Shown here one piece after another: positions 23,168 to 38,914 of a stretch of DNA of 44,033 nucleotides. Numbering within the stretch: the stretch's first letter is position 1; the number at the start of each line of letters is the position of its first letter. Under the pieces are notes generated by a model. The model was not told the DNA's origin and ran no database searches. It saw only the letters and a list, made by a program, of their open reading frames with translations. The position numbers and the translations under genes were made by a program. Source of the DNA: Candidatus Nealsoniibacteriota bacterium (lineage in GTDB: Bacteria; Patescibacteriota; Minisyncoccia; Minisyncoccales; PWPS01); the NCBI GenBank assembly GCA_003555075.1, contig PWHW01000011.1:1-44033 (forward strand). Direction: 5' to 3'.

Positions 23168-24121
23168 TCAATCTTCGAGTCGTTCACCGCTATGGAACTT
23201 TTTGTGAATCTCTTTTAGTTTTTGACTTGTAATGTGAGTATACACTTGGGTTGTAGCAATATTCCTGTGTCCCAAGAACTCTTGTATTACTCTCAGGTCA
23301 ACACCTTGAGCCAAAAGGTCTGTGGCATAAGAATGTCTTAATGTGTGGGGAGTGGTCATAACGGGGATGCCGGCTTTTTTTGCATATTTTTTTACAATAT
23401 TCTCCACAGAACGTACTGTTATCCTTTTTGAAGCCCCTTTAGGGCCCTTGTATCTTATAAAAAGCGCTTTTTCGTCATCTTTACGTGTATTAAGGTAATT
23501 GCGTAGCGCCTCTATGGCACGATTTGAGAAATAAACCGTTCTTGGGTGTTCTCCTTTGCCCACGATCGACACCTCCAGTATTTCTGTTTGGGAGCCGATT
23601 TTCACTTGTTCGCGATCAAGATCTACAAGTTCCGCCACTCTCATACCGGTGGAAAAAAGAGTTTCAAGTATGGCGTGATCACGAAGTCCTACGATATTGG
23701 AGGTATTAGGAGCTTCAAGAAGTTTCTTGATCTGTTCCAATTTAAGGAATTTTACAGTACGTTCTTTGTTTTCCTTGGTAAGTTTTATTTTTTCCGCCGG
23801 CAGAGAGGATATATCACGATCGGCAAAATATCCCAGCAATGATCTTAAGGCTATAAGATAATAGTTTCGAGTACTGTTCTTAATGGGTTCCTTTTTGTGA
23901 GTAAAACGCTTTGAAAGATAAACTCGGTAATTCCATATATGTTCATCGGTCAATTCATGGGGTTTGAGATCCTTGAGATCATTATTTTCAAGCCAATCGA
24001 CAAAGCTTTTGAGGAAGCGGTGATAGGTTTCTTGAGTTTTATTGGAAAGTCCTTTCTCTATATCGAGATATTCAAAGAAACGAGGTATGTGTTCTATTAT
24101 GGAGGTCTTACTTTTTTTCAT
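23168..24121 (-). CDS. xer: XerC/XerD-type tyrosine recombinase
   Basis: 317 aa from ATG 24121 (a GTG at 24157 would add 12). Site-specific recombinases of this type resolve chromosome dimers at dif. The N-terminal SAM-like core-binding domain (about 5-110) is followed by the catalytic domain with the full set in ATG numbering: R161 (TGMRVAE), K189 (GKGEHPR), H259 and R262 (HTLRHSYAT), H285 (LGHRN) and nucleophile Y294 (QVYTHI). It is the only complete tyrosine recombinase in the window and sits beside a 29-bp palindrome. A role in dimer resolution is likely; an integrase role is possible. Confidence 0.9.
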   Translation of the reverse strand: MKKSKTSIIEHIPRFFEYLDIEKGLSNKTQETYHRFLKSFVDWLENNDLKDLKPHELTDEHIWNYRVYLSKRFTHKKEPIKNSTRNYYLIALRSLLGYFADRDISSLPAEKIKLTKENKERTVKFLKLEQIKKLLEAPNTSNIVGLRDHAILETLFSTGMRVAELVDLDREQVKIGSQTEILEVSIVGKGEHPRTVYFSNRAIEALRNYLNTRKDDEKALFIRYKGPKGASKRITVRSVENIVKKYAKKAGIPVMTTPHTLRHSYATDLLAQGVDLRVIQEFLGHRNIATTQVYTHITSQKLKEIHKKFHSGERLED

Positions 24122-24172
24122 ATACTTAGGGGAGAAATGCAATTTTGATAAAAACACCTCTCACTTCGATAA

Positions 24173-34683: not shown

Positions 34684-34929
34684 TTAATAGTCTTCTTCCT
34701 CCTCCCCTTCTTCTGCTTCTTCTGTTTCTCCTTCTTCACTCATCTCTCCTGCTTCTTGGTGTTCTTTCTTTGCATCTTCTTCCGTATCTTCCTCTTCTTG
34801 TGCAACTTCTTTTCTCGGCTCCTCTTCTCGCGTCATACTTTCATCTTCCTCATTTTTCTTTGATGTATACCATATTATTACTACTACCAAGACCAGAATA
34901 ATTACAACTACGATCCAATTTTCAAACAT
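34684..34929 (-). CDS. Small membrane protein with long acidic tail, unknown
   Basis: 81 aa. One N-terminal membrane helix (about 4-22, almost all Val/Ile/Leu), a short Lys-containing stop-transfer, then about 55 residues that are mostly Glu and Asp with few hydrophobics, ending 'EGEEEEDY'. The tail should be disordered and strongly negative, probably on the cytoplasmic side (N-out) but topology is uncertain. No family recognised. Last gene before a strong terminator, 27 nt after murC. Confidence 0.6.
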   Translation of the reverse strand: MFENWIVVVIILVLVVVIIWYTSKKNEEDESMTREEEPRKEVAQEEEDTEEDAKKEHQEAGEMSEEGETEEAEEGEEEEDY

Positions 34930-34956: not shown

Positions 34957-36261
34957 TCAAGACCTTTTTATATAACCTCTTAAGTTATATACATCGCCTG
35001 CGCCCATTATAACCACTATCTCCTCTTCTTGCAAGTCTTTTTTAAGAGTGATTGCTGTATTTTCCAAGTCTCCCGAGTAAAGCCCTTTTTTTGTTTCTTT
35101 ACAAAGTTTTCGTGAATCAACTTTCTTTTTGATCTCTTCGGACTCTCTTCCTTTTACAGTGTAGATGTCCGAAACAAGAAATCTGTCAACTTCAGCACTA
35201 TCTATTGCTTCCTTGAATTCATTAAATAATCTGTAAGTTCTTTCGTATTGGTGTGGTTGAAAAACAGCAGTGATTCTTTTTTTCGGATATTTCTCCCTTG
35301 CAGCTTGAAGGGTGCTCTTTATTTCCGTGGGATGGTGGGCGTAATCGTTTACGATCGTTACTCTTTTTCCGTTCTCAAGAACGATCTCTTCCTCTTCGAA
35401 TCTTCTCCACGTACCTTCGAATTCCGAAAGGGCTTCAAGAATAGTGCTTCTGCCCATTCCCATTCTACTTGCAAGATGAAATGCGGCAAGTGCATTTGAA
35501 AGGTTGTGCTTTCCGGGAACATTCAATTTTATTCCTTTGCTTTCCTTATCATTCAAAGAATATCCGATCACTTCACCGGAAAAGGTGTTCATCACCGATC
35601 TTGCACCTTTATCGTCCATATTCAGAACAAGAAACCCCTCTTCTTGTAAATTGTTGCTCAAATAACTCTTAAAAGTGTTTATTATGTCATCTAGATCATT
35701 ATAAAAATCGAGGTGATCTTCTTCTATATTGGTCACAATAGCTGCTCGAGGATAATAGTTTAAGAGAGCCGCTTTCCATTCATCCGCTTCAATAAGAAGA
35801 TATTTTGACTCTCCTTTTTTAAAGTTGGTTCCTCCGAACTCCTTCAATTTTGTTCCTATTATTACCGTAGGGTCAAATCCCCCTTTTTCAAGCACCAAAG
35901 CAAGCATTGCGGTTGTAGTACTTTTTCCGTGAGTTCCCGAGACGGTTATTGTATGGTATTCCTTGGTAATATCGCCGAGCGCTTGAGGGTAACTCTTTAT
36001 CGTTATACCTCTTCTTCGAGCTTCCTTTATTTCGGGATTATTTTCGGATACAGCCGTACTGTATATGAGCAGATCGGTATCTTTCGGCACATGATCCGTG
36101 TCATGACCTTCAAGCACCTTTATTCCCAAGCTTTCAAGTTCCGAAAAAGAAGATGCATCGGAACCGGAAACAGAGCAACCTTTTGACAGAAAATATCGAG
36201 CCAAAGAGGACACTCCTATCCCCCCGATACCCACAAAATGTATTTTGTAATCATTTTTCAT
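34957..36261 (-). CDS. murC: UDP-N-acetylmuramate-L-alanine ligase
   Basis: 434 aa, slightly short of the usual ~460. Attaches L-Ala to UDP-MurNAc, the first stem-peptide step. N-terminal Rossmann domain 'IHFVGIGGIGVSSLARYF', ATP loop 'VSGTHGKSTTTAMLAL', central 'IEADEWKAALLNYYP' and 'NIEEDHLDFY', and the C-terminal 'DYAHHPTEIKSTLQAAR' with 'VFQPHQYERTYRLF', all MurC hallmarks. The start overlaps the thpR stop by 4 nt. Separate from the murD-murG run, but in the same direction. Confidence 0.96.
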   Translation of the reverse strand: MKNDYKIHFVGIGGIGVSSLARYFLSKGCSVSGSDASSFSELESLGIKVLEGHDTDHVPKDTDLLIYSTAVSENNPEIKEARRRGITIKSYPQALGDITKEYHTITVSGTHGKSTTTAMLALVLEKGGFDPTVIIGTKLKEFGGTNFKKGESKYLLIEADEWKAALLNYYPRAAIVTNIEEDHLDFYNDLDDIINTFKSYLSNNLQEEGFLVLNMDDKGARSVMNTFSGEVIGYSLNDKESKGIKLNVPGKHNLSNALAAFHLASRMGMGRSTILEALSEFEGTWRRFEEEEIVLENGKRVTIVNDYAHHPTEIKSTLQAAREKYPKKRITAVFQPHQYERTYRLFNEFKEAIDSAEVDRFLVSDIYTVKGRESEEIKKKVDSRKLCKETKKGLYSGDLENTAITLKKDLQEEEIVVIMGAGDVYNLRGYIKRS

Positions 36262-36836
36262 AGTTGATACATGGATCCCTTTTGCAATACAAATTCTCTT
36301 AAATTTTCATAAACGGGACCATTTTTTGTTAATTTACTCTCCATGAGATTAAATGAATTGATTTTGAAACTCATTTCAAGCTCTTGACCAATCTCGGGAA
36401 TCTCTGAGAGCGGCATACTGCGAAATTCCCAAGACCTTATCCTTCCCAAGGTGATATGAGGAATGAAATCCTTTCCATTTTTGCTCTGCTGATGAGGTGC
36501 AACCTTATCCTCAAGCTCCCCATACAAGAATGACAACTCCTTGCTCTCCCCTTTTGCCCAGATCATTTTAGCCCTTTTTTTATCCGGGGGTATATAAGTG
36601 ATCTCTTTGAGCAAGACGGAAAAAGGGTTTATTCTTATCTTTTCTGCTTCGGAAATTATTTCGTTAACTCTATCTTCCCTTACTTTCCCAAGAAATAACA
36701 ACGTTATGTGCATATTCTCTTCCTCTACCCACTTTACTCCTTTTTTCAGCTCATTCTTAAGATCCTCTTTTATAACGGATAATTCCCTTTTTATCTCTTC
36801 GGGAAGGCTTACAGCGAAAAATATCCTTTTGAACAT
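36258..36836 (-). CDS. thpR: RNA 2',3'-cyclic phosphodiesterase (2H family)
   Basis: 192 aa from ATG 36836. The reading frame is open to ATG 36902, but a promoter lies over that upstream part and the family start 'KRIFFAVSLPEEIKREL' fits the inner Met. 2H phosphoesterases open 2',3'-cyclic phosphates at RNA ends. Both catalytic HxT motifs are visible: 'HITLLFLG' and 'PHITLGRI'. First gene of a unit with murC (4-nt overlap). Cellular role in bacteria is poorly defined. Confidence 0.9.
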   Translation of the reverse strand: MFKRIFFAVSLPEEIKRELSVIKEDLKNELKKGVKWVEEENMHITLLFLGKVREDRVNEIISEAEKIRINPFSVLLKEITYIPPDKKRAKMIWAKGESKELSFLYGELEDKVAPHQQSKNGKDFIPHITLGRIRSWEFRSMPLSEIPEIGQELEMSFKINSFNLMESKLTKNGPVYENLREFVLQKGSMYQL

Positions 36837-36869
36837 AAAGTATTCTTGTAAATATTTTGCTATGCGGGT

Positions 36870-36898
36870 ATTATGCCAAAGAAAAGAATAAAACTCAA
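36870..36898 (-). promoter_or_regulatory. thpR-murC promoter
   Basis: On the minus strand: TTGAGT (36898-36893), 17-nt spacer, CATAAT (36875-36870). +1 is about 36863, 27 nt before ATG 36836. It lies after the upstream in-frame ATG (36902), so that ATG would not be in the transcript. Confidence 0.6.
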
Positions 36899-36942
36899 TC
36901 ATGATTTAGGTCATCTCTTCTTTTATGCTATGATTAAAAGAC

Positions 36943-37230
36943 ATGAGAATATCTATTAAGGGTTTTGAGAAAAATATTTACAATTTACTAAGAAGCGCGG
37001 GTTACCATCCCGACAGGGGTGATCGCGGAGAGCAAATATCTTTCTGTAAGCCGATTCGTGGTGGTCGTTATCCTCGATACCATATATATTATGACAAGCA
37101 CAAAGAGGAGCTTCGCCTTCATCTTGACCAAAAACCCTCAAAATACAAAAATGCTCCGGATCATGCCGGGGAATATAACGGGCCGTTAGTAGAAGAAGAG
37201 GCGGAAAGGATAAAAAATATTTTATCGTAA
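36943..37230 (+). CDS. Small conserved-looking cytosolic protein, unknown
   Basis: 95 aa, no membrane helix or signal. Rich in charged and aromatic residues with an alternating beta-like core: 'YHIYYDKHKEELRLHLDQK', then 'DHAGEYNGPLVEEEAERI'. I have an impression of similar small proteins in Parcubacterial genomes but know no function. TATGAT ends 8 nt before the ATG, suggesting a leader of only about 2 nt. The next gene starts 4 nt after its stop, so the two are probably cotranslated. Confidence 0.7.
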   Translation: MRISIKGFEKNIYNLLRSAGYHPDRGDRGEQISFCKPIRGGRYPRYHIYYDKHKEELRLHLDQKPSKYKNAPDHAGEYNGPLVEEEAERIKNILS

Positions 37231-37234
37231 AAAA

Positions 37235-37960
37235 ATGAAAGAGGTCTTGCTGGAAAACATTGAATCCTTCTTAAGAAAAATAAAGCAAGAGGGATTTTCA
37301 GAATCAACAGTAAAGAAAAAGAGATCAAGCTTGTCTCTTTTTGAGGATTGGCTCTTGAGAGAAGGGAGAGCCGATGCAAAAGCACGAGAAGTAAAGGAAA
37401 AGGATCTTGAGAAGCTGGAAAAGGATCTTAACAAGAAAGGACTTTCCGAAAAAGCAATAAAAAGACATCTTAATGTTATTTGTGAATTCCTGGAGTATTC
37501 CGGTAATAAAGATCTTCCCGTTTCAAGGAGAAACAAGGGGGAGGTTGAAAGCGATATTCAAAAGATAGTGAACCACTATTTCAAGACCAAGGGTCTCTCA
37601 ATTGAGGATATAAAGAAAAATGCTCAAAAAAGAAGAATAATCTATTCAAGATACACAAAGCCTGCCAAAGACCTACTCTGTCTTGCAGGTTCCGTAGAGG
37701 AAGCAAAAAAGGCAATAGATAAAGTCTCTTCATGGGCAAGATCAAGAGGGCTTGATTACGCCATAGAAACAGTGTTTAAGAAATGGCCTGAAATTGATAA
37801 ATTGAAGCCCAAGGAAAAGAAAATAAAACCCTATTTCCGAGATAATCCCATGGTATGGTCCAAGACAAAAAGGAAGTGGTTCGTAATAAGCAAGGACGGA
37901 GAGTGGCTTGAGTTTGCAGGAAAAAAAGAGGAAATAGAATGGAAAGAGGAAGAGGATTAA
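37235..37960 (+). CDS. Orphan integrase SAM-like (core-binding) domain protein, unknown
   Basis: 241 aa. Residues ~1-90 look like the N-terminal core-binding domain of tyrosine recombinases ('ESFLRKIKQEGFSESTVKKK', 'LSEKAIKRHLNVICEFLEYS'). No catalytic domain follows: there is no HxLRH or GH...Y. A Lys/Arg-rich helical middle (~100-195) includes 'SRYTKPAKDLLCLAG' and 'SWARSRGLDYAIETVFKKW'. A short C-terminal unit (~205-236) has 'KRKWFVISKDGEWLEFAG'. Suggests a DNA-binding protein without recombinase activity. Tightly linked (4 nt) to the preceding unknown gene; fmt follows after 21 nt. Confidence 0.75.
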   Translation: MKEVLLENIESFLRKIKQEGFSESTVKKKRSSLSLFEDWLLREGRADAKAREVKEKDLEKLEKDLNKKGLSEKAIKRHLNVICEFLEYSGNKDLPVSRRNKGEVESDIQKIVNHYFKTKGLSIEDIKKNAQKRRIIYSRYTKPAKDLLCLAGSVEEAKKAIDKVSSWARSRGLDYAIETVFKKWPEIDKLKPKEKKIKPYFRDNPMVWSKTKRKWFVISKDGEWLEFAGKKEEIEWKEEED

Positions 37961-37981: not shown

Positions 37982-38914
37982 ATGAAATTAGCATTTGCTA
38001 GCAATTCTTCATTTGGTACGATCATTTTTGAGAAACTTTTAAAGGAAAGAGCTCATATCTCATTTTTGATAACTTCTCCGAATAAAAGGATCGGGAGGGG
38101 GAAAAGAAGAAAGCCGCTTCCTATAAAAGAGATAGCGGAAAAAAACAAAATTCCCGTGAAAGAAGCGGGGAATAAAGATGAATTTCATAAAGTGATCGAG
38201 AGTGATAAACCTGATTTAGTGGTAATGGCCGGCTTTGGCCTAATAATAACGACGAAAACACTAGAGATGTCGCAATTCATAAACGTCCATCCCTCTCTCC
38301 TCCCCAAATATAGAGGACCCACCCCTATCCAATCAGCGATAATGGAAGGTGAGAAAATGAACGGGGTCACAATAATAGAGGTCACCGAAGGTATCGACGA
38401 AGGTCCCATATTGAAGCAAGAAGAAGTATGTCTCCCCGAAAAAATAACTTATCCGGAAGCTGAAAAAGTTCTTGCAAAAAAGGGCGGAGAGCTTCTTTTA
38501 AAGCTCTTGTCCTACTTTGAGAAGAATGGAAAAGATTTTAAGAGGCTACCTCAAAACGAAAAATTTGCTACCTACACTCGGATGCTTGAGAAAAAAGATG
38601 GAAGAATAAACTGGAAAGAATCTGCAGGGATCATAGAGAAAAAGGTCAGAGCTTTAAATCCTTGGCCGGGAACCCATACCACGTTAAACGGTAAGACGAT
38701 CAAAATACTTGACGTTGAAACGCAAGAGCAAACATCGGACGGCCCCTTTGGAGAACCGGGGAAAATATATCTCGGCACGAACGATACTTTAGCGGTACAA
38801 ACGGGAAAGGATTTTCTTATTATTAAAAAGTTGCAAATAGAAGGAAAAAAACCCTCCACTTCAAAGGATTTTCTTCAAGGTAATATGGATTTTATCGGAA
38901 AGAGTTTTTCCTAA
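37982..38914 (+). CDS. fmt: Methionyl-tRNA formyltransferase
   Basis: 310 aa. Formylates Met on initiator tRNA using 10-formyl-THF. The N-terminal formyltransferase fold has 'LVVMAGFGLIIT', the signature 'NVHPSLLPKYRGPTPIQSA' with catalytic Asn/His, and 'IIEVTEGIDEGPIL' with catalytic Asp. The C-terminal OB domain has 'KVRALNPWPGTHTTLNGK'. Length is normal. Its stop overlaps the end of convergent galU by 4 bp, so neither gene has its own terminator here. Confidence 0.96.
   Translation: MKLAFASNSSFGTIIFEKLLKERAHISFLITSPNKRIGRGKRRKPLPIKEIAEKNKIPVKEAGNKDEFHKVIESDKPDLVVMAGFGLIITTKTLEMSQFINVHPSLLPKYRGPTPIQSAIMEGEKMNGVTIIEVTEGIDEGPILKQEEVCLPEKITYPEAEKVLAKKGGELLLKLLSYFEKNGKDFKRLPQNEKFATYTRMLEKKDGRINWKESAGIIEKKVRALNPWPGTHTTLNGKTIKILDVETQEQTSDGPFGEPGKIYLGTNDTLAVQTGKDFLIIKKLQIEGKKPSTSKDFLQGNMDFIGKSFS

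Follow-up and report, generated by a model that had tools for sequence, protein, structure and literature searches.

A candidate PriA-displacing protein of phage replication-initiator descent in Candidatus Nealsonbacteria and other Parcubacteria

Replication and repair are poorly known in Patescibacteria with genomes of ~0.6 Mb, and PriA (primosomal protein N', TIGR00595) is missing from many of them. The locus described here raises the question of what a small, conserved protein does when it is encoded between genes that elsewhere flank priA. It lies in a stretch of 44,033 nucleotides, hereafter the window, which is contig 9 of a Candidatus Nealsoniibacteriota genome of 609,564 bases that is rated 100 % complete. 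Two ORFs on the forward strand, separated by a gap of 4 nt, are flanked by thpR on the opposite strand and by fmt on the same strand (Table 1). The original prediction, made from the sequence alone, had singled these ORFs out as a two-gene module; both are real and are kept in other genomes, and as such neither arose by chance. The named neighbours of ORF2 belong to Candidatus Nealsonbacteria and other Parcubacteria, which suggests that the host falls within the class Paceibacteria of the Patescibacteria.

Table 1. Features of the ORF1–ORF2 locus, in window coordinates
Feature	Position	Strand	Description and evidence
ORF1	36943..37230	+	95 aa; conserved family of its own, directly upstream of ORF2; AlphaFold2 pLDDT 84.6
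ORF2	37235..37960	+	241 aa; candidate PriA-displacing protein of phage-replication-initiator descent
ORF2 integrase-type SAM-like/core-binding domain, residues ~5–95	37247..37519	+	PF02899/PF13495, AlphaFold2 helices, fold match 3nrw
ORF2 C-terminal domain, helical part, residues ~104–190	37544..37804	+	Alignments A1, A2 and A4; AlphaFold2; C-termini of L160, L161 and L182
ORF2 C-terminal domain, beta tail with KWFVISKDGEWLEFAG, residues ~195–238	37817..37948	+	AlphaFold2 strands; tail alone in L148, L149 and L151
ThpR (RNA 2',3'-cyclic phosphodiesterase)	36258..36902	-	TIGR02258, E 3.3e-40; upstream edge of priA slot
Fmt (methionyl-tRNA formyltransferase)	37982..38914	+	TIGR00460, E 2e-66; downstream edge of priA slot

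Domain structure of ORF2 and the family of ORF1

Pfam scans placed Phage_int_SAM_1 (PF02899; E 5.9e-07, 30.1 bits against a cutoff of 22.3) and SAM_4 (PF13495; E 2.2e-06, above cutoff) on ORF2, and in the AlphaFold2 model (pLDDT 92.4 for the whole protein) this region folds into four helices spanning residues 5–18, 23–42, 55–67 and 72–88, with pLDDT >90. Foldseek searches with the model against the PDB and BFVD returned integrase core-binding domains only, the top PDB match being 3nrw, the N-terminal domain of an archaeal phage integrase (probability 1.00, TM 0.71 by target length and 85 aligned columns, yet E 0.23). The recombinase catalytic domain Phage_integrase (PF00589) was not found in ORF2 by a Pfam scan that detected it in the window's Xer protein (23168–24157) at E 6.5e-40. 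The XerC/XerD tyrosine recombinases thus share an N-terminal SAM-like core-binding domain with ORF2, but possess the catalytic domain that ORF2 lacks. On these points the original prediction, of a protein of undescribed function with an integrase-type SAM-like domain and no catalytic domain, was right, and DNA binding is probable. Derivation of this domain from the window's Xer protein was also considered and was dropped, as the similarity between the two is not significant (E 0.059).

The remainder of ORF2 (residues ~101–240) forms a single domain of ~140 residues. It had initially been divided into a 'helical middle' and a 'short C-terminal KWFVISKDGEWLEFAG unit', a split that does not hold: in the AlphaFold2 model a helical block (107–189) runs into five strands (197–238), the supposed unit being the beta tail of one strongly conserved domain. 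In an alignment of 16 sequences, 42 of 142 columns are invariant, and identity to homologues across the window's order is 60–78 %. The protein is usually single-copy and strongly conserved, and in most relatives the C-terminal domain exists without the SAM domain. Searches of this domain against Pfam, NCBIfam and PDB profiles identified no relatives, and Foldseek against the PDB and BFVD gave no fold match; as such, helicase binding cannot be read from the structure. Scans of ORF2 for an AAA+ ATPase domain (Pfam and NCBIfam), for the DciA domain PF05258 (Pfam) and for TIGR00595 were likewise negative.

The N-terminus, meanwhile, is exchanged among the 80 chromosomal homologues. HHH_8, a helix-hairpin-helix domain known from family X polymerases, was found by Pfam in 44 of them, whilst nine (the window's ORF2 included, and all close together on the tree) have the SAM domain and 27 have a short, often Lys-rich N-terminus alone, such that about one third of ORF2 homologues carry no recognizable DNA-binding domain. 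On the tree of the C-terminal domain the HhH distribution needs one change and that of SAM one or two, so each N-terminus was probably gained once. Moreover, the confinement of SAM to the window's part of the tree marks it as a local feature that is not the key to function.

ORF1 has 40 distinct homologues, with the motif YPRFH..LHLDQK..Y..H..EY..E..RI, of which YPRFH, LHLDQK and H..EY are near-invariant. A fold search with its model against the PDB returned nothing below E 0.2, and a PDB profile search found no relatives. The family was found in 22 of 94 class genomes, most of which have no ORF2, and lies beside ORF2 in the window's family and some others (L092, L102, L110) whilst being distant from it elsewhere. 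The predicted pairing of the two genes is therefore real in the window's family but not obligate, the neighbourhood survey having located ORF1 both far from ORF2 and in genomes that have no ORF2. ORF1 is a separate class-wide family, independent of ORF2 and without a match to any known fold or family. Elsewhere in the window (34684–34929, minus strand), we noted a protein of 81 aa whose N-terminus holds a membrane segment and whose tail is very acidic, for which all Pfam matches fell under the curated cutoffs and resemble low-complexity noise.

Phage and mobile-element relatives of the C-terminal domain

In phage initiators a winged-helix, O-like or DnaD-like module marks the start site, and the C-terminal part brings the replicative helicase. 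A scan of viral sequences detected the full ORF2 C-terminal domain on four viral contigs (30–52 % identity, E 3e-14 to 6e-32), and L182 was recovered as a fifth by a second scan, with 46 % identity to the phage query. In L160 (305 aa), L161 (273 aa) and L182 (283 aa) the domain is C-terminal, and their N-terminal parts match the PHROG annotations 'DnaD-like helicase loader' or 'replication initiation protein' (E 6e-63, 3e-13 and 8e-13, respectively). In L158 and L159 it is encoded on its own, immediately downstream of a small gene for an O-like HTH protein (E 1e-08 and 1.5e-07). A tblastn search of INPHARED found no relatives in cultured phages.

The beta tail also occurs alone. It ends a DnaD-like loader (L151, 2641–3423; phrog_8489, E 1e-63) on a phage contig that additionally carries a Rad52-like gene and a gene that we take, by eye, to be NinB-like. 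Furthermore, it is found on two HTH replication proteins adjoining serine recombinases (L148, 3621–4235, with HTH_36 at E 9e-15; and L149, 2956–3549). The recurrence of the lone tail on unrelated mobile-element replication proteins suggests a portable replisome-contact module. Together, the phage fusions and the lone tails link the helical part and the beta tail alike to replication initiation. Two divergent copies were seen on other contigs of relatives: one of 168 aa without the tail (L152, 1155–1661), and one of 124 aa that has it and lies on a phage-like contig (L150, 916–1290).

ORF2 is thus homologous over the ~140-residue C-terminal domain to phage O-like and DnaD-like initiators (PHROGs 5708, 8489, 428, 678 and 2514). 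Whereas those proteins have an N-terminal winged-helix module, this module is absent from all 80 chromosomal homologues, which have SAM, HHH_8 or nothing in its place and are encoded on the chromosome at a housekeeping locus. The chromosomal copies form one clade separate from the phage copies (support 99/98), with the exception of a divergent copy in G356 (L205) that branches among phages yet precedes def–fmt. An independent second domestication in G356 was considered and was not retained, as a single origin was not rejected by the AU test (p 0.52). The chromosomal clade may go back to just one event.

ORF2 at the chromosomal position of PriA

The order priA–def–fmt is familiar in bacteria, and PriA–Def–Fmt was seen in L212–L215, L226 and L229. 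Within the class, PriA loci read ThpR(-)/PriA/Def/Fmt or AMMECR1/PriA, and ORF2 loci read ThpR(-)/[ORF1]/ORF2/[Def]/Fmt or AMMECR1/ORF2/Fmt. At 64 of the 80 ORF2 loci and 21 of the 24 PriA loci, the gene is bordered upstream by opposite-strand ThpR or by AMMECR1, downstream by Def/Fmt, or on both sides. ORF2 therefore stands at the chromosomal position of PriA, and this constitutes a locus replacement.

The two genes are also nearly mutually exclusive. Among 60 relatives, 50 have ORF2 only, four PriA only, none both and six neither (Fisher p 4e-4), whilst in a class draw of 189 genomes 20 had ORF2, 98 had PriA and a single genome had both (Fisher p 4e-6), both p-values ignoring the relatedness of the genomes and thus overstating their independence. 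The relatives with full-length PriA (G025, G038, G044 and G049) all fall within the ten that have no ORF2, and ORF2 was again absent from these ten when searched with a phage-inclusive profile. The remaining weak matches of the PriA search in the 60 relatives were partial, as expected for other helicases. A search of the window's own genome for full PriA was negative, the best hits being partial matches to helicases at E 4e-11 or weaker. At the level of families, 13 in the class have ORF2 and 46 have PriA, with one in common (f211). In a draw across the phylum, PriA was absent from all six genomes with ORF2, one of which (G077) belongs to another class. Both proteins were missing from 72 of the 189 class genomes; loss of PriA hence does not require ORF2 and, taken alone, is no proof of replacement.

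The sole overlap is G419, a MAG of 150 contigs with a completeness of 85 %, in which one contig (C140; L232) carries ThpR–PriA and another (C109; L199/L117) carries ThpR–ORF2–Def–Fmt, the N-termini of the two ThpR proteins being identical at 36 of 40 residues. We favour the explanation that two related organisms were binned together, one with PriA and the other with ORF2 in the same place, over that of a recent duplication.

A candidate restart factor, competing explanations and other proteins of the priA slot

With phage-initiator homology, replacement at the priA locus and near mutual exclusion with PriA all observed, we regard ORF2 as probably a domesticated phage replication-initiator domain that displaced PriA in place and reloads the replicative helicase. 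For the protein itself we infer fork binding, helicase recruitment and a restart function. In one Paceibacteria lineage, the C-terminal domain of a phage initiator would have become a chromosomal gene in the priA position, with HHH_8 gained later in one branch and the integrase-type SAM domain in the window's family. At a stalled fork, the N-terminal domain (or Lys-rich N-terminus) would hold branched or gapped DNA, whilst the phage-derived C-terminal domain would contact or recruit the host replicative helicase DnaB, or its partner, allowing the replisome to reload. In reloading the helicase at stalled forks, ORF2 would do the work of PriA itself. Nevertheless, PriA is a protein of ~650 residues with a helicase motor, whereas members of the ORF2 family have about 140–260 residues, no motor and no sequence similarity to PriA; without a motor, ORF2 cannot copy the unwinding activity of PriA.

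Domestication of phage helicase factors is known from DnaC/DnaI, where it was accompanied by loss of DciA (PMC5109545). ORF2 would have followed the same route, from a phage replication gene to a chromosomal helicase factor with loss of the original factor; DnaC and DnaI, however, are AAA+ ATPases and replaced DciA, whereas ORF2 is without an ATPase domain and took the place of PriA. DopE, named in PMC13326638, is a further domesticated phage helicase loader that followed this route. Within the literature searched (open-licence papers), we found no paper on loss of PriA or the primosome in Patescibacteria and none describing replacement of PriA by a phage-initiator domain. If the proposed role is correct, the domestication known from DnaC/DnaI would reach the step of fork restart and would include a protein with neither an ATPase nor a helicase motor. 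For the restart factor that is missing, ORF2 offers a specific and strongly conserved candidate, and a gene whose conserved part has no Pfam or NCBIfam match becomes a testable component of the replisome.

The main rival explanation is that ORF2 substitutes for DciA as a general loader of the replicative helicase at oriC, the loss of PriA being incidental to genome reduction. Phage genes have repeatedly replaced dciA in the form of dnaC/dnaI (PMC5109545), and DciA (PF05258) was detected in only three of the 60 relatives, as against 110 of 286 genomes phylum-wide, and not in the window's genome. DciA is, however, rarely detected even in class genomes that do not have ORF2, so the two are not complementary; moreover, both are present in G053, and the locus that ORF2 occupies is the slot of priA, which counts against DciA as the factor replaced. 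We therefore consider this explanation unlikely, and DciA replacement was set aside as the main claim since most of the class is also without DciA.

It is more improbable still that ORF2 is a phage-derived decoy, in which the initiator C-terminal domain would compete with invading phages for the host replisome as a means of defence. Such a role would accord with the presence of the same domain in phages of these hosts and with its fusion to new DNA-binding parts. Defence genes are variable, however, whereas ORF2 is near-universal in the order, 60–78 % identical across families and held at one housekeeping locus, and a decoy would leave the exclusion of PriA unexplained. Least probable is the originally suggested accessory DNA-binding role in Xer recombination, the nucleoid or partition, to which the SAM-like domain and the adjoining ORF1 had pointed but which found no support: that domain is a replacement in one clade (nine of 80 homologues, clustered on the tree) without significant similarity to the window's Xer (E 0.059), ORF1 occurs without ORF2, the conserved part matches phage replication initiators and the gene is in the priA position.

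Displacement of PriA by a phage-derived protein may extend beyond the ORF2 family, as other small proteins often precede def–fmt in genomes that have neither PriA nor ORF2. In some such genomes a protein of ~120 residues is encoded directly upstream of def–fmt (L234, 3002–3460, minus strand; L241, 2932–3300, minus strand; L251, 560–916, plus strand). The N-terminal part of this family aligns with the C-terminal end of an O-like initiator from a phage (L255, 2554–3294), a short match with 49 % identity over 39 aa (E 7e-7), beside which lie genes that we presume, by eye from their sequence, to specify a phage DnaB-like helicase and a primase-like protein. In profile comparisons, neither this family nor the other slot proteins showed any relation to the ORF2 domain. 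The match to a phage initiator suggests repeated displacement of PriA, although as a lead only; we thus put forward tentatively, at somewhat less than even confidence, that Paceibacteria have a hotspot at the priA position, where PriA may have been displaced more than once by unrelated phage initiator C-terminal domains.

In other class genomes, a further set of small proteins often stands before def–fmt (L237, 642–911; L238, 1148–1435; L252, 2696–2980; and also in L239, L245, L246 and L250). Identity between L252 and L238 is just 20 %, so common descent of the whole set is not established. The set has no Pfam or PHROG match; its members are 83–97 aa long where they form a separate gene, and carry the motif 'KLHSREHVLADDLSKMMGEPKRF.AYLGI...GK.FF'.
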